A DNA stretch of 64,000 nt, from the NCBI RefSeq assembly GCF_023650955.1, contig NZ_CP098039.1:1922001-1986000 (forward strand), given 5' to 3'. Origin of the DNA: Thermosynechococcus sp. HN-54 (GTDB taxonomy: Bacteria > Cyanobacteriota > Cyanobacteriia > Thermosynechococcales > Thermosynechococcaceae). The notes under the pieces are model-generated. The model was not told the DNA's origin. It was given only the letters and a program-made list of their open reading frames with translations, and ran no database searches. Made by a program: the position numbers and the translations under genes. The stretch's first letter is position 1. Each line of letters starts with the position of its first letter. Of the stretch, positions 12,934-22,500 are shown one piece after another.

Positions 12934-13060
12934 TTGACATCCTCCCCCTGCTTTAGCAGGGGGATTCCTAAGCCTCACGACTTAGGTTTCTGTTTCTTCG
13001 CGGTTGCCCTTTAGACGTATGCCTATCAGGTCTTACACCTGCTCCACAGACTGCAACCGT
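12934..13060 (-). ncRNA. Probable omega RNA of the tnpB element
   Basis: In the TnpB family the guide RNA is transcribed from the 3' end of tnpB through the right end of the element, and the guide lies in the flanking DNA. Here that region has two stable hairpins (12967-12986 and 12944-12963) and ends at TCAA 12937-12934. The guide would begin with minus-strand TGCTAATTGTCATCCC, reading down from 12933 into the 3' end of the SRPBCC gene. The 5' limit (13060) is a guess; no promoter was identified. Confidence 0.4.
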
Positions 13061-14146
13061 GTGTCCCACGGCCAAAATGTTTTGAGCCGCATTCACATCT
13101 CGGTCGTGGTGTGCCCCACATTCAGGGCAGTCCCATTCCCGGACGTTCAGCGGCAGCTGCTCAACCACGTGACCACACTTTCCACAGCGTTTAGAACTGG
13201 GGAACCATTGGTCAATTTTTACCAGTGTCCGACCATACCACTGGGTTTTATAGTCCAATTGCCGTATCAGTTCACCCCATCCAGCATCGCTGATGGATCG
13301 GGCAAGCTGACGGTTCTTGACCATATTTTTCACAGCCAATGACTCGACCACAATCGTTTGGTTTTCACATACCAATCGAGTCGTCAACTTGTGCAAATGG
13401 TCTTTTCTGCAATCAGCGATCTTCTGTTGAATCTTGGCGACTTTCAGCCGCGCCTTATCCCAATTGCGAGAGCCTTTTTGCTTGCGACTCAAAGACTGCT
13501 GAGCCTTACGGAGTCGTTTGTAATGGCGGTCAAAGTGCTTGGGGTTGGCGACCTTTTCCCCTGTACTCAGGGTAACGAGACTGTTAAGTCCTGCATCCAA
13601 ACCAACCGACTGGTTGACGGGTTGCAGTGTCAGGTCTCTGGGGTCGTCAAACCTCAGACTGACATACCACTGTCCAGCGGGGTTAAGCCGGACTGTAACG
13701 GTGGATGGCTCAACGCCTTCTGGCAATTGCCTAGACCATCTAATATTCAATGGCTCCAGACACTTTGCCAGAAACAATTTCCCGTCTTTCCACCTGAAAG
13801 CAGACTTGGTGAATTCTGCGCTGCCACCATGGCGTTTCTTTTTGAAGTTGGGATATTTCGCCCGACCCGCAAAGAAGTTGTTGAAGGCAGATTGCAGATG
13901 CCTCAAGGCCTGTTGCAACGGAACAGAGCTAACCTCATTCAAAAACTGGAGGTCATCTTGCTTCTTCCACTCGGTAAGCAAAACAGAGGTTTGGGTGTAA
14001 TCAATTCTCTCCTGCCGTTCACGCCAAGCTTCTGTTCTCACTGCCAACGCTCGGTTATAAACCAACCGAACACAGCCCAACGTTTTCCGAAGCAGGGATT
14101 CCTGCTCGGTCGTCGGGTAGAAGCGGTAACTGAAAGCCTTTTCCAT
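12968..14146 (-). CDS. tnpB: RNA-guided nuclease TnpB (IS200/IS605 OrfB)
   Basis: A 392-residue intact TnpB. The N-terminal helical/REC-like region begins FSYRFYPTTEQESLLRKTLG. The RuvC-like catalytic residues are present: Asp184 in VGLDAGLN, Glu268 in VVESL, and Asp350 in HDRDVNAAQNI. The zinc ribbon between them has Cys321, Cys324, Cys340 and Cys343. TnpB proteins of this kind cut DNA next to a target motif using an RNA made from the element's right end. The reading frame has no disruption, so it may be active. A 275-codon open frame on the other strand is its shadow. Confidence 0.94.
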   Translation of the reverse strand: MEKAFSYRFYPTTEQESLLRKTLGCVRLVYNRALAVRTEAWRERQERIDYTQTSVLLTEWKKQDDLQFLNEVSSVPLQQALRHLQSAFNNFFAGRAKYPNFKKKRHGGSAEFTKSAFRWKDGKLFLAKCLEPLNIRWSRQLPEGVEPSTVTVRLNPAGQWYVSLRFDDPRDLTLQPVNQSVGLDAGLNSLVTLSTGEKVANPKHFDRHYKRLRKAQQSLSRKQKGSRNWDKARLKVAKIQQKIADCRKDHLHKLTTRLVCENQTIVVESLAVKNMVKNRQLARSISDAGWGELIRQLDYKTQWYGRTLVKIDQWFPSSKRCGKCGHVVEQLPLNVREWDCPECGAHHDRDVNAAQNILAVGHTVAVCGAGVRPDRHTSKGQPRRNRNLSREA

Positions 14147-14239: not shown

Positions 14240-15004
14240 ATGAAGGTGCTGGAGCAAACAGACTATCGCTTGCGTTTGCAGGAACGGCCTTTGGCTCTTT
14301 GGCTTTTTGGCGGGCTGTTTTGTCTGGTTCCTGTTCTCATTTTGAGTGTCTTTCCTGTTGCTGACATTGAGTGTCAACGCCAAACGTTTCCCTATGAGTG
14401 TGTGGTCACCACCACGTCCTTTGTCACTCAAGAGCGGGTCAAAATTCCACTCTCGGTGCTGCGACAGGCAAAGTTGGAGGACTACATTGACAGTGAGGGC
14501 GATCGCATGTACCGGATCGTCCTTGAGGGTGTGGCTGACTCAATACCCTTGGGCATCGCCTCCTCAGATGCGGGCGATCGCGCCACCATCGTGGAGCAAA
14601 TTAACCAGTTCTTAGCGAACCCCAACCAAATGCAACTGTCTGCTCGTGTGGACGATCGCTGGCTGATTCAGATAGTTGTAGGGGTGTTCTTTTTGGTGGG
14701 GGCGAGTCTGATTGCCTTGACTCCTGTCTTGACCCTCGATCTGGATCGCAGTAGTGGCACCTTGACGATTTTCCATGCCAATTTCTTCCGCCGAACTCAC
14801 AAGGAATTGCGCCTGCGCGAGATTAGTGACATTACTATTGAAAGCTCCGTGGATTCCGAGGGCGATCGCCTGTATCGCGTCGTTGTTCACCTAGCCTCTG
14901 GCGAGAAAGTCCCGCTGCGGCACTACTACAGTAGTGGCTATAACAGCAAGAAAGAACTGGCCAATCACCTGCGTCAGTTTCTCTATCTGCCGCCCTACGA
15001 CTAA
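14240..15004 (+). CDS. Membrane protein with two copies of one domain
   Basis: A 254-residue protein with hydrophobic segments near residues 19-40 and 138-162. After each comes a similar soluble module: DSEGDRMYRIVLEGVADSIPLG ending in INQFL (about 82-125), and DSEGDRLYRVVVHLASGEKVPL ending in LRQFL (about 205-248). The two modules share the DSEGDRxYRxVV core, so the gene arose by internal duplication. I do not recognise the family. Its Shine-Dalgarno GGAGG (14230-14234) lies across the end of the tnpB element, six bases or less before the ATG. Confidence 0.72.
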   Translation: MKVLEQTDYRLRLQERPLALWLFGGLFCLVPVLILSVFPVADIECQRQTFPYECVVTTTSFVTQERVKIPLSVLRQAKLEDYIDSEGDRMYRIVLEGVADSIPLGIASSDAGDRATIVEQINQFLANPNQMQLSARVDDRWLIQIVVGVFFLVGASLIALTPVLTLDLDRSSGTLTIFHANFFRRTHKELRLREISDITIESSVDSEGDRLYRVVVHLASGEKVPLRHYYSSGYNSKKELANHLRQFLYLPPYD

Positions 15005-15095
15005 TTCTGGCGGTGCGCAGACTGGCTGTTGATTACACTGGAGATGATGGCATAATGCAGTCACGGTCAGTGGGATTCTGCCCTCAATTATCACT

Positions 15096-17759
15096 ATGCA
15101 ACCAACGGATCCAACAAAGTTTACTGATAAAGCATGGGAAGCCATTGTTAAGTCCCAAGATGTGGCACGGGAGTATCGCAGCCAATATCTAGAAACAGAG
15201 CACGTGATGATTGCTCTGCTGCGGGAGGAAGGTTTAGGCCAACTCATTCTTGAACGGGCGGATATTGACACTGAATGGGTACTCAAGCGGCTGATGGATT
15301 TTGCGAAGCAGCAGCCCCGTGTTCCCACAGGGAGTGAACTGTACTGTGGCCGTAGTTTGGACGCCCTTCTGGATGAAGCCAACCGCCTGCGCCAAGAGCA
15401 TGAGGATCAGTTTATTTCGGTTGAGCATCTGCTGCTTGCCTTTGTCGGCGATCGCCGGATCGGTCAACGCCTCTTCCGCGCTTTGAATTGCGATCGCGAG
15501 CAGTTGGCGGCCACGGTTAAAGCCATTCGTGGTTCTCAAAAAGTCTTAGATCAAAACCCCGAAAATAAATACGCCGCCCTTGAAAAATACGGCCGCGATC
15601 TCACCGAAGCGGCACGCCAAGGCAAATTGGATCCCGTCATTGGCCGCGATGAGGAAATTCGCCGTGTCATTCAAGTCCTCTCCCGCCGCACCAAAAACAA
15701 TCCCGTGCTGATTGGTGAACCCGGCGTTGGCAAAACAGCAATTGCCGAAGGTCTGGCGCAACGAATTATCAATGGCGATGTACCGGAATCTCTGAAAAAT
15801 CGGCGGCTGATTTCCCTTGATCTCGGTAGTCTGGTGGCGGGTGCCAAATTTCGCGGCGACTTTGAAGACCGCCTCAAGGCCGTTCTCCACGAAGTAACCC
15901 ATTCCGACGGTCAAATTGTTCTCTTTATTGATGAGCTGCACACCGTTGTCGGCGCCGGTGCCAATCAAAACTCCTCGATGGATGCCAGCAACTTGCTCAA
16001 ACCCATGTTGGCGCGGGGTGAACTGCGCTGTATTGGTGCCACCACCCTAGACGAATACCGCAAGTATATTGAGAAGGATGCTGCCCTCGAGCGGCGTTTT
16101 CAGCAGGTGTATATTGGCCAGCCCAGTGTTGAGGATACGATCTCGATTTTGCGCGGCCTCAAGGATCGCTACGAAATTCACCACAACGTCAAAATTACTG
16201 ATTCTGCCTTGGTGGCAGCCGCCACCCTTTCAGATCGCTACATTAGCGATCGCTTTTTGCCCGACAAGGCCATTGACCTCGTGGATGAAGCAGCAGCCAA
16301 GCTGAAAATGGAAATCACCACCAAGCCTGCTGAACTAGAAGCCCTTGAACGGCGCCTGCGGCAACTGGAGATGGAAAAACTCTCCCTCAAGCAGGAGGAA
16401 AGCCTACCCCTTAGCCAAGTGCCACTGCAAGCCACCCGCGATCGCCTGCAGCGCATTGAAGAGGAAATTGCCCAACTGCAACCACGGCAACAGGCCATGC
16501 AAGCCCGCTGGCAAGCAGAAAAAGACCTCCTAGAGCGCATCAACAGCCTCAAGGAAGAAGAAGACCAAGTGAAGTTGCAAATCGAGCAAGCAGAGCGCGA
16601 CTATAACCTCAACAAAGCGGCTCAACTTAAATATGGTCGCCTCGAAACTCTACAACGCGAACTGGAGGCCACTGAAGCGCAACTCTTGGAACTTCAGGCC
16701 GAAGGTGGCACCTTTTTGCGCGATCAAGTTACCGAAGCCGATATTGCCGAAATTGTCTCCAAATGGACGGGAATTCCGCTGCAAAAACTCATGGCCTCAG
16801 AACGCCAAAAACTCCTGCAACTGGAACATGTCCTGCATCAGCGGGTAATTGGTCAAACCGATGCTGTGGCAGCCGTGGCCGCAGCGATTCGCCGAGCGCG
16901 AGCCGGCATGAAAGATCCTGCCCGTCCCATTGGTTCATTTCTCTTTATGGGGCCGACGGGAGTGGGCAAAACAGAACTCGCCCGTGCTCTTGCTGAAGCC
17001 CTCTTTGACGATGAAAATGCCCTTGTGCGCATTGATATGTCGGAGTACATGGAAAAACACGCCGTCTCCCGTATGATTGGCGCACCGCCAGGGTATGTGG
17101 GCTTTGACAGTGGCGGGCAACTAACGGAAGCGATTCGCCGTCGTCCCTATGCCGTAGTTCTCTTTGACGAGGTGGAAAAAGCCCATCCGGAAGTTTTTAA
17201 TGTGCTTCTGCAGGTGCTGGATGATGGCCGCATTACTGATTCCCAAGGGCGGACGGTGGACTTCCGCAATACCGTGATCATCATGACTAGCAACTTGGGC
17301 AGCGAACATATTTTAGACTTAGCCGGCGATGACAGCCGCTACGAAGAAATGCGCCAACGGGTGCTTCAAAGTGCGCAAAAGTATTTTCGCCCTGAATTCC
17401 TCAATCGCATTGATGATTTGATTCTCTTCCATGGGCTAGGGCGGGCTGAACTGGCACAGATTGCCCAAATTCAACTGCGGCGGGTGGAGAGACTCCTTGC
17501 TGAGCAAAAAATTCGGCTGCGCCTCACTCCAGCAGCGCTGGATCATTTGGTGGCAGTCGGCTTTGATCCAGTCTATGGAGCACGTCCTCTGAAGCGTGCT
17601 ATTCAACGGGAATTGGAGAACCCCCTCGCCGTGAAGATCCTTGAAGAGGTCTTTGCACCCGGCGATACGATTTTGGTAGATTTGGTCAATGGTGAGTTGA
17701 CCTTTAGCGCTGCAAACCTCGCAGGGGCAGGCGATCGCGACACCGTCACTGCTTCCTAG
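15096..17759 (+). CDS. clpB: ATP-dependent disaggregase ClpB
   Basis: An 887-residue Hsp100 chaperone that threads aggregated proteins through its hexameric pore with DnaK. Order of parts: Clp N domain (about 5-150), first AAA+ domain with Walker A GEPGVGKT near 207 and Walker B LFIDELH, a long coiled-coil middle domain (about 410-540, rich in Leu, Glu, Gln), and a second AAA+ domain with GPTGVGKT near 620 and [16 protein letters not shown]. The middle domain distinguishes it from ClpC/ClpA. Cyanobacteria carry two ClpB paralogs; I cannot say which one this is. Confidence 0.95.
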
Positions 17760-17791
17760 GCTCTCTATCACCAACTTGGCAGGAAAGGCAT

Positions 17792-18664
17792 GTGAAAGTT
17801 CTTACCATTTATCACAACAAGGGTGGTGTAGGGAAAACGACGATCGCTGTGAATTTGGCAGCTGCCCTTCGTTGTCGGGGCAAGCGGGTTTTAGTTATTG
17901 ACATGGATTCTCAAGCCAATACAACCTTTGCCACCGGCTTAATGAGTTTCCTGTTTGAAGAGGAGGATACCCTGCGTGATGCCCATATCTTCCATGTGCT
18001 CAGATATGCAGAGGAGTATCCCATTGAAACCGTTGTGCGGAAATCCCAGTCTTTTAATCACCCGGAGATTGATGTTGTCCCTGCCCATATTGATTTAGTC
18101 AGCATTGAAACCCGTGATCTACTTAGAGAGATTGATGGGATTCATTTGCAACTCCTCATGAAGTTAGAAGCCATCAAAGAAGCCTATGACATTGTGATCA
18201 TAGATGCACCGCCAGCTTGGGATCTCTACGCTGAAATTGCCCTGATTGCCTCGGACTATCTAATTATTCCCTCAGATTTTAAGCCCTTTGCCAATCAAGG
18301 CCTAAAGTACGTCCTGTCGTTTGTTAAAGATATTAACCGACGATTTGCAGATTTGCGGATAAGACTAGGTAAAAAAACCTTAGAGATTTTGGGAATCTTG
18401 CCCTCGAAAATTCATGGCAGCACTAGGAATTCAAAGAAGTTTATTGCTCTTCAAGAAGCAATTAGGGATAAGTATCCCCTCAAAATCCTAGAGACAATTA
18501 TCACTGAGTGTGTTGATTTATCCAGTAGCCTCAATCGCGTGATTACCATTGGCGATAGTCAAATACCAGCACCTCAGTCCATTTTTCGCTTTAAGCCCAA
18601 TTCAGATGCTGCCCGCGAATTTAATGATTTGGCCGATGAACTCCATTGGCTCACTCAAGTCTAA
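17792..18664 (+). CDS. ParA-family partition ATPase
   Basis: A 290-residue ParA/MinD-type ATPase. The deviant Walker A is intact (KGGVGKTT, residues 10-17), with the Walker A' region VLVIDMDSQANTT near 33-45 and Walker B YDIVIIDAPPAWD near 130-142. It starts at GTG 17792; ATG at 17790 is closed by a stop. It sits six bases before the ParB-like gene, the usual parAB order. Such ATPases move plasmids, chromosomes or large complexes along the nucleoid. Base composition is visibly more A/T-rich than clpB upstream, consistent with acquisition, but no other mobile marker is present. Confidence 0.88.
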   Translation: MKVLTIYHNKGGVGKTTIAVNLAAALRCRGKRVLVIDMDSQANTTFATGLMSFLFEEEDTLRDAHIFHVLRYAEEYPIETVVRKSQSFNHPEIDVVPAHIDLVSIETRDLLREIDGIHLQLLMKLEAIKEAYDIVIIDAPPAWDLYAEIALIASDYLIIPSDFKPFANQGLKYVLSFVKDINRRFADLRIRLGKKTLEILGILPSKIHGSTRNSKKFIALQEAIRDKYPLKILETIITECVDLSSSLNRVITIGDSQIPAPQSIFRFKPNSDAAREFNDLADELHWLTQV

Positions 18665-18670
18665 AAAGCA

Positions 18671-19558
18671 ATGGTCAATAGTAAGCGTATTCAGTTAACG
18701 GCGATTGAACTGGGTTCTGAATCTCCTCCCCTAGATCAAGGGCGTGTCGAGCAATTGGCCAGTTCAATTCTCAAAGCAGGTATTTGTTTTCCACCGCTAG
18801 TGGTGCGGCGATTGGGCGATCGCTTGGCCTGTCATCGCTTCAAACTCTTGTCGGGTCATCGCCAGTATTATGCTGCCCAAAAAGCCAATCTTAAGGAAAT
18901 TAATGCCCTTATTCTTGAGGAAAATGACCCGCCGGAAATAGAAGCTGCTATTCTCAGTCAAATTCAGCCCAATGCACCAGTATCTGAGGTTCCAGAAGAA
19001 CAAAAAGAAGAAAAAGTAACCGAGCCTTCAGACCTTAACCAACCAGTCATCAACTCCAGCGAAGACCTGATCAAGAAACTCTACCAGCAAAATCAGCAGC
19101 TTCTTGCTCACAATGAGGCTATTCATCAGTCTCTCAAGCAGATGTGTGCCTATACTCAGCAGCTCTTAGCACAAAATCAGTCCATTTGCCAGTCTCTACA
19201 GGAAGTGCAAGCAGCCCTAGCAAATATCAATACCCAAATAGCGAGCGTCCCGACTTCACAAGTGCCACCGCCCACACCAACAGCAACGCTATCAGGCTCC
19301 TTGGAAGATCGCAACCAACCTCAGTTAAAAATACGCTTGATTAATCAAGGCTCTCAAGCTGAAATCAAACAGTGGCTTACAAATGCAGGAATCAGTGAAA
19401 AAAGCAGTGGAAAATATATCAAAAAGATTATTGAATATCGTGCTCAATCTCCCTTTCAGTCTCTCATTCATCTGAAAGAAATTTTGAAACTGAAGTCTCA
19501 GACCCTTACAAAACTCGAAAAGTGCCCTGTACCAGCAAGCTCGAGTTTTCCTCACTAG
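18671..19558 (+). CDS. ParB-like protein with Gln-rich repeat and C-terminal HhH region
   Basis: A 295-residue partner of the preceding ParA. Residues 5-82 resemble the ParB/Srx N-terminal domain, with the box II-like motif LLSGHRQYYAAQKA at 59-72. No typical ParB DNA-binding helix-turn-helix is seen. Residues 135-190 form a Gln-rich helical stretch with a repeat of about 21 residues (QQLLAHNEAIHQSL, then QQLLAQNQSICQSL), followed by a Pro/Thr linker (195-210). Residues 222-285 look like a ComEA-like helix-hairpin-helix pair (LINQGSQAEIKQWLTNAGIS, then PFQSLIHLKEILKL), which could bind DNA non-specifically. Cargo is unknown. Confidence 0.75.
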   Translation: MVNSKRIQLTAIELGSESPPLDQGRVEQLASSILKAGICFPPLVVRRLGDRLACHRFKLLSGHRQYYAAQKANLKEINALILEENDPPEIEAAILSQIQPNAPVSEVPEEQKEEKVTEPSDLNQPVINSSEDLIKKLYQQNQQLLAHNEAIHQSLKQMCAYTQQLLAQNQSICQSLQEVQAALANINTQIASVPTSQVPPPTPTATLSGSLEDRNQPQLKIRLINQGSQAEIKQWLTNAGISEKSSGKYIKKIIEYRAQSPFQSLIHLKEILKLKSQTLTKLEKCPVPASSSFPH

Positions 19559-19794
19559 CCACTATCAGTTAACCATTGGCTACCAAATAATCCAGCTGTT
19601 GCTCCCACGGCAAGGGCGATCGCTGGATGCCATTTGCGGCGGATCATCACCCCAAGAGAAAAGACTAAGAACAAGCTGTTGACGGCGAGGCTGACGGGCT
19701 GATGGAGATGAACAATTGCAAGAGCAAGGTTACTGGCCGCTGACAACACCATACCCACCACCGCAAGATAATGAATTCCTGCTGCCTCAGCCAA
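19555..19794 (-). CDS. Small membrane protein
   Basis: A 79-residue hydrophobic protein with about three membrane segments (residues 8-28, 33-50 and 55-73). The central MIRRKWHPAIALAVG separates the last two and contains the only strongly charged patch. I do not recognise the family. It ends by overlapping the stop of the ParB-like gene on the opposite strand by four bases. A start with ATG at 19794 gives the most plausible first segment. Confidence 0.5.
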   Translation of the reverse strand: MAEAAGIHYLAVVGMVLSAASNLALAIVHLHQPVSLAVNSLFLVFSLGVMIRRKWHPAIALAVGATAGLFGSQWLTDSG

Positions 19795-20001
19795 ATCCCA
19801 AAACGATGGCCACTATTGGCGTAGTGGGTCTAATTTTTACCTAGATTGAAGAAAAGAGAAGTAGAGATAGAGGAGATATAAAAGCGGCAGAAGAGGCTAG
19901 GAAACTACAAGAGTCTCTTACCAAAGTTACGTCGCGCAGTTTAAGTCAGGTGTTTTGGGGCGATAACACTTTTTAAGGATTAATTAGCCTTGTAGCTTCA
20001 G

Positions 20002-20526
20002 CTATCTTCCAGCACTTTCGGGTTCAGCGGTAAACTGTATCTCTACAGAGTCATTGACCTTCAGTCCTAATTCGGCGGCGCGGCCACCCGCCAGTTCTAA
20101 AACGGCATCCACTGGAACCCCGGACTCGTAGGTCGGGCAGGGGAGAGTTTTGCAGGGGGGAGCTTCGGGGGCGATCGCCACCACTTTACCCTCCCTGAGA
20201 AAAATCAAGTCGAGGGAAATGAGGCAATTTTTCATCCAGAAGCTGGCCACTTGGGGTGGCGACATTGGAAACAGCATGCCGCGATCAGGGGGCAATTCAG
20301 AACGAAACATCAAGCCCAACTGTTGCTGTGCTGGCGTGCGCGCCACTTCCAATTGAATCCAGGTGTCGTGAATGCGTGCCCTAGCAGTAATCGGTAGATA
20401 CTGGGGAACCCCGCGAACCCTCTGAGGTGGGACATCCCCCTGGCCAAAGCTTTGACACCCCAGCAGCAACCCTAGGGTCACTAGTCCCAAAACCAACCCG
20501 CGTACCTTAGGCTTCACGGAGAACAT
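20002..20526 (-). CDS. DUF192 family lipoprotein
   Basis: A 174-residue exported protein. The start at 20526 gives a signal peptide (LVLGLVTLGLLLGCQ) with lipobox LLGC. The DUF192 domain follows (about 50-165): QLEVARTPAQQQLGLMFR, GMLFPM, FWMKNCLISLDLIFL and a Gly-rich end with VPVDAVLELAGGRAAELGL. Function of DUF192 is unknown to me. Its start overlaps the response regulator by 20 bases, so the two are probably one transcript. Confidence 0.85.
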   Translation of the reverse strand: MFSVKPKVRGLVLGLVTLGLLLGCQSFGQGDVPPQRVRGVPQYLPITARARIHDTWIQLEVARTPAQQQLGLMFRSELPPDRGMLFPMSPPQVASFWMKNCLISLDLIFLREGKVVAIAPEAPPCKTLPCPTYESGVPVDAVLELAGGRAAELGLKVNDSVEIQFTAEPESAGR

Positions 20527-21196
20527 ATCCCACTCCTCGCACCGTATGGATGAGTCGTTTTTCGCCATCGGGTTCAATCTTCAACCGTAAATAGCGAATA
20601 TAGACTTCAATGACGTTAGATTCTCCCAAAAAGTCATAGCCCCAGACATTTTCCAAAATTTGCTCACGAGTGAGGACTTCGCGGGGGTGCTCCATAAGAA
20701 ACTTCAGCAGTTCATACTCTTTCATCGTCAGGTCGATCGTGCGCCCATTGCGCTCTGCCCGCCGCGTCAATAAATCAAGGGTCAAATTATCAAATCGCAA
20801 CACCTCACTTTGGGTCACAGGGGGCTTCAAATACAACTGAATCATCTGGAGAAAGGGCTTGGGACTATAGGGCAGCAATAGGTAATCATCGGCACCCGAC
20901 TCCAGCACAGCGACCCGATCTTCTAGGCGATCGCTCTCCAACATCAACAGAATCGGCAAGCTAATCTCCTGCTGACGCAACCGCTGGCACAACTCCATAC
21001 TGTTGAGCCGCCCCAAATAGCGATCCATGATGATCAGGGCAGGTTGCCATTCTGCACAGGCCAAGTGGCATTCTTTTTCCGTCGTCGCAATTACGGGATC
21101 GTAGCCCGCTGCTTGGAGGTCTTGTCCCATCCGTTGCGACAAGTGGTTGTCGGCGCACACTAAAAGCAAACGTGCAGGGGGAGACATTAACTCCAT
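20507..21196 (-). CDS. nblR: OmpR-family response regulator, NblR-like
   Basis: A 229-residue two-domain regulator. The receiver domain keeps the Asp (ALIIMDRYLG) but the N-terminal acidic pair reads VCADN instead of DD, and the conserved Lys after beta-5 is replaced (DDYLLLPYSPKPF). The C-terminal winged helix is complete (TMKEYELLKFLMEHPREVLT, then IRYLRLKIEP and IHTVRGVGYVLRE). The MDR motif and atypical receiver resemble NblR, which controls phycobilisome breakdown under nutrient stress; that name is a moderate guess. ATG 21196 has GAGG nine bases upstream; GTG 21211, ATG 21205 and ATG 21187 are alternatives. Confidence 0.75.
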   Translation of the reverse strand: MELMSPPARLLLVCADNHLSQRMGQDLQAAGYDPVIATTEKECHLACAEWQPALIIMDRYLGRLNSMELCQRLRQQEISLPILLMLESDRLEDRVAVLESGADDYLLLPYSPKPFLQMIQLYLKPPVTQSEVLRFDNLTLDLLTRRAERNGRTIDLTMKEYELLKFLMEHPREVLTREQILENVWGYDFLGESNVIEVYIRYLRLKIEPDGEKRLIHTVRGVGYVLREA

Positions 21197-21259
21197 TGAG
21201 ACCATCCTCACTATGGGGATCTTACCTTTAGCTTATTCCCTGTGGGAAAATGATGAAGC

Positions 21260-22500
21260 TCACTCCACCAGCTGACGCGAGGTGGAGGTGTCAGTGCTAA
21301 CCTGAAGATTGCGAATCCACAGATCACACAGACAAGCCCAGCTTTGAGGCAAGCTTCGGGAACGTTTGCCCAAAGACTCCTCACTGTCCTTTCGCCAAGT
21401 GAGCTGAAGAATTCCTCTGGCCGCAATGCTTTGACTCCCATTTAAGTCGCAGTTATACCGCTTGCCAGAGGGAAATTGTGCCAGAGCATGGTTTTTAGGA
21501 TCGCGCGTCACCACCCCAGAACCGTCATAGGTCAGCTTGGACCTGTAGGCAGCCACCACATCCATCACCTGACCCCCCACCTCTTGCCACTTCTGCTCGG
21601 TGAAGGTGCGAATCATCCCCTTTAACCACCCGTGAAACCGTTGACGCAAGGTAGACCCTTTTCTACCGCCACTCGGCCTCCAGTCCGTCAGTCTCTCAAA
21701 CACAATCGCTTGAGCATTGAATCGTTGGGCAATGTCCACGATTCGCTTCGAGACATGGTGAGCAATGTTCTAGTTGATATGGCGACATTTGCGATAGGTG
21801 TGAGAGCAGAACCCCTTGTGGAGCTTTCCACCTTTTCCCATCATTTTCCCTGCTCTGGTTGACACCGATTTCAGGCGCTTGTCTCTGCGGTCTATGTCTG
21901 TTCCGGGGTGAGATTACAGTACCGTCGAAGGTAACCACTGAAACCGTTGTTGTCGGGCTGCCGCTTTTCGGGATGACACTCAAACGGAACGGCGAGATGG
22001 CATTTGCGCCCATTGCAAATGAGGGAAGGGGATAGTTGTTTGTTGCTATCCACGGTATGCCGTTCTCTTCGTCCTGAAATCTGAACAGTTGTCCAGACCC
22101 AATCTTTGCCTGTGAATACCTTGAGTTCTACTTGGTCATACCCGTGCAGTCTGTAGCACTGTCCTCGGTACAACGTGGGGTAGTATCCCGTCTCCCCATT
22201 CAGGGTGGGGGGCTGGGCATCCCGACGGTAGTAGCTGGGGAACTTGTGAAACGTGCGGTCGCTTGGGTATTTCGGGTTGGGATTTTGGCGGATTGCATGC
22301 ACCAGCCCTTCGACCGCAGGAATCACCTGCTGACTGTTTAAGCTGCCTATCTCCGACCAATGGGTCAACACGATTCCCATGAAATGCCGGCACAAGCGGC
22401 GATAAATCTTCACCGTTTCAGCCAAGAGGACACGCTGGTGTGCCGTTGGGTTCAGGCGCCATTGGTCCCCGTGCGAATGATGGGATTTCGAGTTAGCATA
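21260..22500 (-). pseudogene. Decayed TnpB-like gene
   Basis: Pieces of one TnpB-like protein lie in three frames. From the 5' side: HHSHGDQWRLNPTAHQRVLL and AETVKIYRRLCRHFMGIVL (frame ending 21892), a shift near 21950 to VSVVTFDGTVISPR, another near 21905 to DIDRRDKRLKSVSTRAGK, an in-frame TAG at 21772-21770, then KRIVDIAQRFNAQAIVFERLTDW to the stop at 21260. The segment that should hold the first RuvC Asp is missing at the first shift; the Glu (VFERL) and last Asp (CDLNGSQSIAARG) remain. It differs from the intact tnpB at 12968 and has no zinc ribbon. No good start codon is in frame. Confidence 0.8.

Follow-up and report, generated by a model that had tools for sequence, protein, structure and literature searches.

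What might a ParA ATPase do when the protein encoded directly behind it carries the N-terminal fold of ParB and, in place of the ParB helix-turn-helix (HTH), a long coiled coil? This question is raised by a two-gene locus of the hot-spring cyanobacterium Thermosynechococcus sp. HN-54, whose 2.71-Mb genome is one contig; "the window" hereafter means the whole stretch of 64,000 nucleotides of that contig that was analysed. The initial annotation had proposed an intact ParA followed six bases later by its partner, and both coordinates (Table 1) and motifs confirm this: the Soj motifs are complete, with KGGVGKTT at residue 10, DMDSQANTT at 37 and VIIDAPP at 135, the deviant Walker A is intact and its signature lysine present, and the gap to the partner gene is six bases. 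A Pfam scan assigns the protein to AAA_31 (E 8e-49), and in comparisons with single proteins it scores 78 bits against Soj and 38 bits against the McdA of Cyanothece. The ParA of a relative (L044) has a Soj-like fold in a structure comparison (Z 35).

Table 1. The gene pair and the parts of the partner protein, in window positions
Feature	Positions	Strand	Basis and remarks
parA, Soj-type ParA ATPase	17792..18664	+	GTG start, 290 aa; Pfam AAA_31 and motifs
parB-like (putative adaptor) gene	18671..19558	+	ATG start, 295 aa; Pfam and AlphaFold2 model
ParB_N fold, residues 1-98	18671..18964	+	Pfam; Z 12.7 to ParB 7bnk; GERR/ENLQR motifs degenerate
Gln-rich coiled coil, residues 127-191, one predicted helix	19049..19243	+	AlphaFold2 model
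Two copies of a 63-bp (21-aa) repeat, within the coiled coil	19093..19197	+	Repeat search
Predicted C-terminal HhH-like helical domain, residues 211-284	19301..19522	+	Model, family profile, fold match

The surroundings of the pair are as originally described. The left neighbour, clpB, is on the same strand and ends at 17759, 32 bp before parA, while a DUF192-like gene and a response regulator lie to the right on the opposite strand (by our own reading of the translations); the pair is A/T-richer, with a GC content of 0.44–0.45 against 0.53 for clpB. The genes clpB and parA may be near enough for a common transcript, and a scan found no terminator-like site between them; promoter and terminator scans at the locus gave nothing better than shuffled sequences, and no RNA families were found in 14800–21500. 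At 19555–19764 on the minus strand is a relic of a chromate transporter-like gene, chrA, consisting of its last 70 codons only, which is full length at the corresponding place in genomes G247 and G387. Upstream of clpB, at 12968–14146 (minus strand), our reading of the translation points to a TnpB-like transposase-associated ORF.

The partner is, as had been claimed for it, a ParB_N protein without an HTH. Pfam places ParB_N at residues 9–99 (E 3e-10, above the cut-off), and an AlphaFold2 model based on 48 aligned relatives shows the ParB_N fold with confidence as far as residue 98, followed by a disordered stretch, a helix at 127–191 and a compact C-terminal domain at 211–284 (mean pLDDT 86.6; at a pTM of only 0.41, the arrangement of the domains is not given by the model). 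The ParB_N part matches the folds of ParB, Noc, PadC and sulfiredoxin (Z about 10–12.7). No HTH family is matched in Pfam, and the model has a 65-residue helix instead; nor did the profile search find a standard ParB with the full HTH, which the initial annotation had named as the outcome that would speak against it. The Gln-rich repeat of 21 residues corresponds to a 63-bp direct repeat in the coiled coil, whose copies (19093–19134 and 19156–19197) are 74% alike, and its copy number varies between species, residues 141–161 being missing in G247. The Gln enrichment of the partner by itself is modest (p about 0.03). In G387 the partner (L125:5882-6973) has grown to 363 aa, with three tandem units of Pro/Thr linker plus helix.

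The ParB_N domain of this family differs from that of canonical ParBs where CTP is bound. The arginines of GERRxR (R, R, R) and the E, N and R of ENLQR are invariant in 17/17 canonical cyanobacterial ParBs; aligned against these, the family has F/L, E, Y and variable residues at the CTP-clamp positions, in a constant replacement pattern, G-x-[FL]-E-Y-Y-A-A, which in the window's clade reads GHRQYYAA. By sequence, the partner family has lost the CTP-clamp residues, and the altered site may possibly take another ligand or be structural in function. A member of this ParB_N subfamily also occurs in a tail protein gene of the Anabaena phage A-4L (NC_024358, L187:3815-4417), 44% identical over 60 residues and followed by a stretch that by eye resembles the start of an ADP-ribosyltransferase, and the PDB chain 9k3a_B, named a tail protein, matches the family profile (E 2.5e-8).

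At the other end of the protein, Pfam gives an HHH_3 match at 251–283 that is sub-threshold only (E 0.0014). A family profile of the C-terminal domain matches DUF655/AF1531 (2i5h, E 7e-6) and 27ae (E 4e-5), and ComEA very weakly; the best fold match is the HhH domain of TEFM, with a Z of 6.9 over 71 residues that taken alone is middling. The profile and fold matches agree with the HhH region first read from residue patterns, and the domain may be regarded as an HhH-like module with putative nucleic-acid binding. Across the family, most members have an HhH-like tip and 7 of 81 have one of the SAP/Rho_N type, with Rho_N above its cut-off in two scanned members of that type, which fits the swapped DNA-binding module suggested at the outset. 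Its net charge is positive in every member checked. Modules of the HhH and SAP kinds usually recognise nucleic acids by their shape, and in HhH domains the GhG hairpin makes the contact with DNA. A GhG hairpin-like motif is present in 41 of the 74 non-SAP members and degenerate in the window's protein and clade, so that DNA binding by the window's own tip is something we infer; with the motif degenerate in many relatives as well, protein or RNA could be what the tip binds.

To what extent the pair forms a unit can be judged from its distribution. A ParA profile was scanned against 84,980 species genomes, and the best 80 loci, picked by ParA alone, were analysed; their ParAs are 47–53% identical to that of the window and nearly all cyanobacterial, with some from Thermodesulfobacteriota, Thiotrichaceae and others. 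In 80/80 of these best loci a gene for ParB_N, coiled coil and small C-terminal domain directly follows parA, a few of the partner genes being fragmentary or cut by contig ends (L049, L095, L105). The distances among the ParAs and among the ParB_N domains co-vary (r 0.84, Mantel p 0.001). At a strict cut-off, 54/386 cyanobacterial genomes and 32/142 genera sampled across the phylum carry the ParA, nearly always once, and in single-contig genomes it sits on that contig. With the window and relative proteins as queries, no such pair was found among 72,556 plasmids and 50,697 phages, and plasmid ParAs are distant relatives. These pairs make up a conserved family of chromosomal loci in which the order of the two genes is fixed. 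The complete genome has no canonical parS (0 sites at two or fewer mismatches to TGTTTCACGTGAAACA, a test confined to this type of site), and the search for centromere-like short repeats near the locus gave nothing beyond the 63-bp repeat in the coding sequence and pairs of a size expected by chance. In many Nostocales a different ParA (about 294 aa, MGYVIATANMKGGVGKTT...) is encoded divergently upstream of the pair (L045, L058, L074, L079, L088, L101, L106, L118).

A further look for a second chromosomal pair, also proposed at the start, found one of the same architecture in this genome. It is a divergent pair at about 395 kb (G000:C1:394979-396322 and downstream; L004, L188), whose ParA, of 448 aa, has a nuclease-like N-terminal domain fused to it and whose partner, of 254 aa and a few bases downstream, has a ParB_N-like stretch (by eye), a coiled coil and an HHH_3-like end. 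This ParA occurs in 9/11 genomes of the genus and in 16/373 sampled in the phylum, and the tips of its partners in other genera look HhH-like or SAP-like by eye. One design in two diverged branches strengthens the reading of tip, coiled coil, ParB_N and ParA as one machine. A third ParA of the genome (G000:C1:1021488-1022003, L005; 463 aa), with a nuclease-like N-terminal region, is followed by a tandem series of short coiled-coil proteins that closely resemble one another, two of them with a transmembrane-like segment at the end.

A nuclease-like extension is also common in the window pair's own family: of the 78 public loci that could be scored, 65 have a ParA with about 140 extra N-terminal residues matching HSDR_N/HSDR_N_2 near threshold. 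HSDR_N_2 is matched at E 0.01 by 51/53 of these domains, several of the matches being near or below the curated cut-off, and all 53 share, without variation, E11, D46, E70 and K72, the residues usual in PD-(D/E)XK nucleases. The assignment as nucleases is thus one by motifs and weak profile matches; the relatives' N-terminal domain gave no profile match to a solved nuclease structure, and a model of the fused ParA has weak stretches in this region. The putative domain shares the E, D and E-x-K residues with its counterpart in the R subunits of type I restriction systems and differs from it in being fused to a ParA, not to a helicase. It is absent from the ParA in 3/3 intact copies of the window's genus, and no remnant of it was found in the 1.5 kb upstream of the window's parA, beyond the MK..GGVGK end shared with the first profile. 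Mapped on a quick ParA tree with several open forks, it underwent at least five changes between presence and absence while the pair persisted. As the nuclease comes and goes and the pair persists, the pair can be seen as the core of the system.

No description of a nuclease-ParA/ParB pair or of the present family was found in the open literature that was searched. A 2025 survey of ParB-CTPase fusions, which likewise join ParB_N to other domains, gives DUF3850 as the only fusion consistently adjoining parA, and in its main text we found no fusion of the HhH/SAP type accompanied by parA (PMC12704722). The family extends the known ParA/ParB_N systems and is itself still one of them.

Within the genus, the pair is intact in 3/11 genomes, in each case directly behind clpB. 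In four others relics stand at this site: only the first ~37–44 codons of parA behind clpB in G089 and G392, and pieces of the partner gene in G388 and G389. G179 has a clean 254-bp junction. Intact copies and relics at one site indicate that the pair was ancestral there, at least for these species, and was repeatedly lost. Between this genome and G247, dN/dS is 0.11 for ParA and 0.34 for the partner (0.16 for its ParB_N, 0.51 for its linker, which evolves by change in repeat copy number); between species, purifying selection acts on both genes. The pair is thus old, selected and dispensable in the genus.

The reading we favour, with moderate confidence, is a chromosomal ParA/adaptor module for positioning or DNA surveillance, whose adaptor would hold DNA by its C-terminal tip. 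It draws on the model of ParA systems in which ATP-bound ParA sits on the nucleoid, an adaptor strips it locally and cargo follows the resulting gradient (PMC6328274). ATP-bound ParA dimers would coat the nucleoid non-specifically; the ParB-like protein, dimerised via its coiled coil, would stimulate ATP hydrolysis and so release ParA, and would move or space whatever its HhH (or SAP/Rho_N) tip holds, the tip choosing the cargo. Partition of something other than the chromosome, one suggestion of the initial annotation, may be what results. The cargo is likely to be DNA, or a nucleoprotein, marked by shape and free of a parS site, since tips of this kind usually recognise the structure of DNA or RNA and not its sequence; and as the ParA of most relatives carries a PD-(D/E)XK-type nuclease, the DNA held could probably be cut or nicked, plausibly for defence or for the processing of intermediates. 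The window's clade would retain the nuclease-free positioning core. Such a module shares with ParABS (Soj-Spo0J, ParA-ParB) the Soj-type ParA and a ParB_N-fold partner encoded directly downstream, and differs from it in lacking the HTH and the GERR/ENLQR CTP motifs, in having an HhH/SAP tip, in the frequent nuclease fusion of its ParA and, in the window genome, in the absence of canonical parS.

A bolder form of this reading may be entertained tentatively: the nuclease-ParA plus ParB_N-coiled-coil-HhH/SAP pairs would constitute a large unrecognised class, in which a ParA gradient delivers the nuclease to DNA that is foreign or marked by its structure on the chromosomes of cyanobacteria, and of which the nuclease-free window branch would have turned to positioning. 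Rather doubtful to us is defence or DNA surveillance as the role proper, with nuclease-ParA scanning the DNA, an adaptor that spots foreign or abnormal DNA (ends, junctions, replication intermediates) licensing cleavage, and the window copy a reduced version. The invariance of the PD-(D/E)XK residues in relatives, the patchy occurrence in the phylum plus other phyla, the repeated loss with relics at one site and the fast-changing linker are all what such a role might produce. However, no defence family matched more than 2 of 110 near neighbours (a count without a random-position control), the commonest neighbours being signalling, glycosyltransferase and metabolic genes; PADLOC matches are weak and come only via the ParA/ATPase part; and the window copy is under purifying selection though free of the nuclease.

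The favoured adaptor module must further be set against the positioning of a protein body. Here the adaptor would tie a carboxysome or polar scaffold to the ParA gradient, as in McdAB or PadC, with the C-terminal domain a protein-binding helical module; we consider this unlikely. PadC of Myxococcus xanthus, a ParB-like protein, offers a precedent in that it binds ParA on behalf of a protein scaffold (PMC5703909), and fold comparison matches its ParB-like domain to the partner (6ryk, Z 11.3); PadC, however, serves a bactofilin scaffold, whereas the window adaptor has its own adjoining ParA gene, a coiled coil and an HhH-like tip. McdAB likewise pairs a cyanobacterial ParA-type ATPase with an adjoining gene for a small Gln-rich coiled-coil partner; the partner's coiled coil resembles the central region of beta-McdB type 2, and the window ParA has the signature lysine, which beta-McdA type 2 also has (PMC8262871). 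The degenerate GhG motif would suit protein binding as well. Against this, McdB does not resemble ParB proteins (PMC6328274), its invariant C-terminal Trp is missing in the window's partner (which ends in ...KCPVPASSSFPH, SSSFPH; a W is among the last three residues in 14/81 relatives), and the window ParA is by score nearer to Soj than to McdA. A carboxysome role in particular is made less likely by the fact that most species of the genus lack the pair.

The initial annotation had allowed for a plasmid-derived orphan. That the pair is a plasmid-derived partition relic without present function is very improbable: lower GC, patchy occurrence and the distant kinship with plasmid ParAs would fit, but the family is chromosomal in its closest relatives among the matches listed and absent from the plasmid collection, the pair is fixed in 80/80 best loci with co-varying distances, its decay in the genus took place in situ, its low dN/dS speaks for selection, and both HTH and canonical parS are missing.

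The adaptor module thus preferred bears on how ParA ATPases are used. In DNA segregation they depend on a ParB able to read parS, and the partner in this family has lost both the sequence reading and the CTP clamp. Many cyanobacteria are polyploid. For S. elongatus, no obvious chromosomal parB is reported (PMC6328274). A widespread family whose ParA usually bears a nuclease would extend the known uses of ParA gradients, and the family stands as a testable candidate for how some cyanobacteria handle their DNA.
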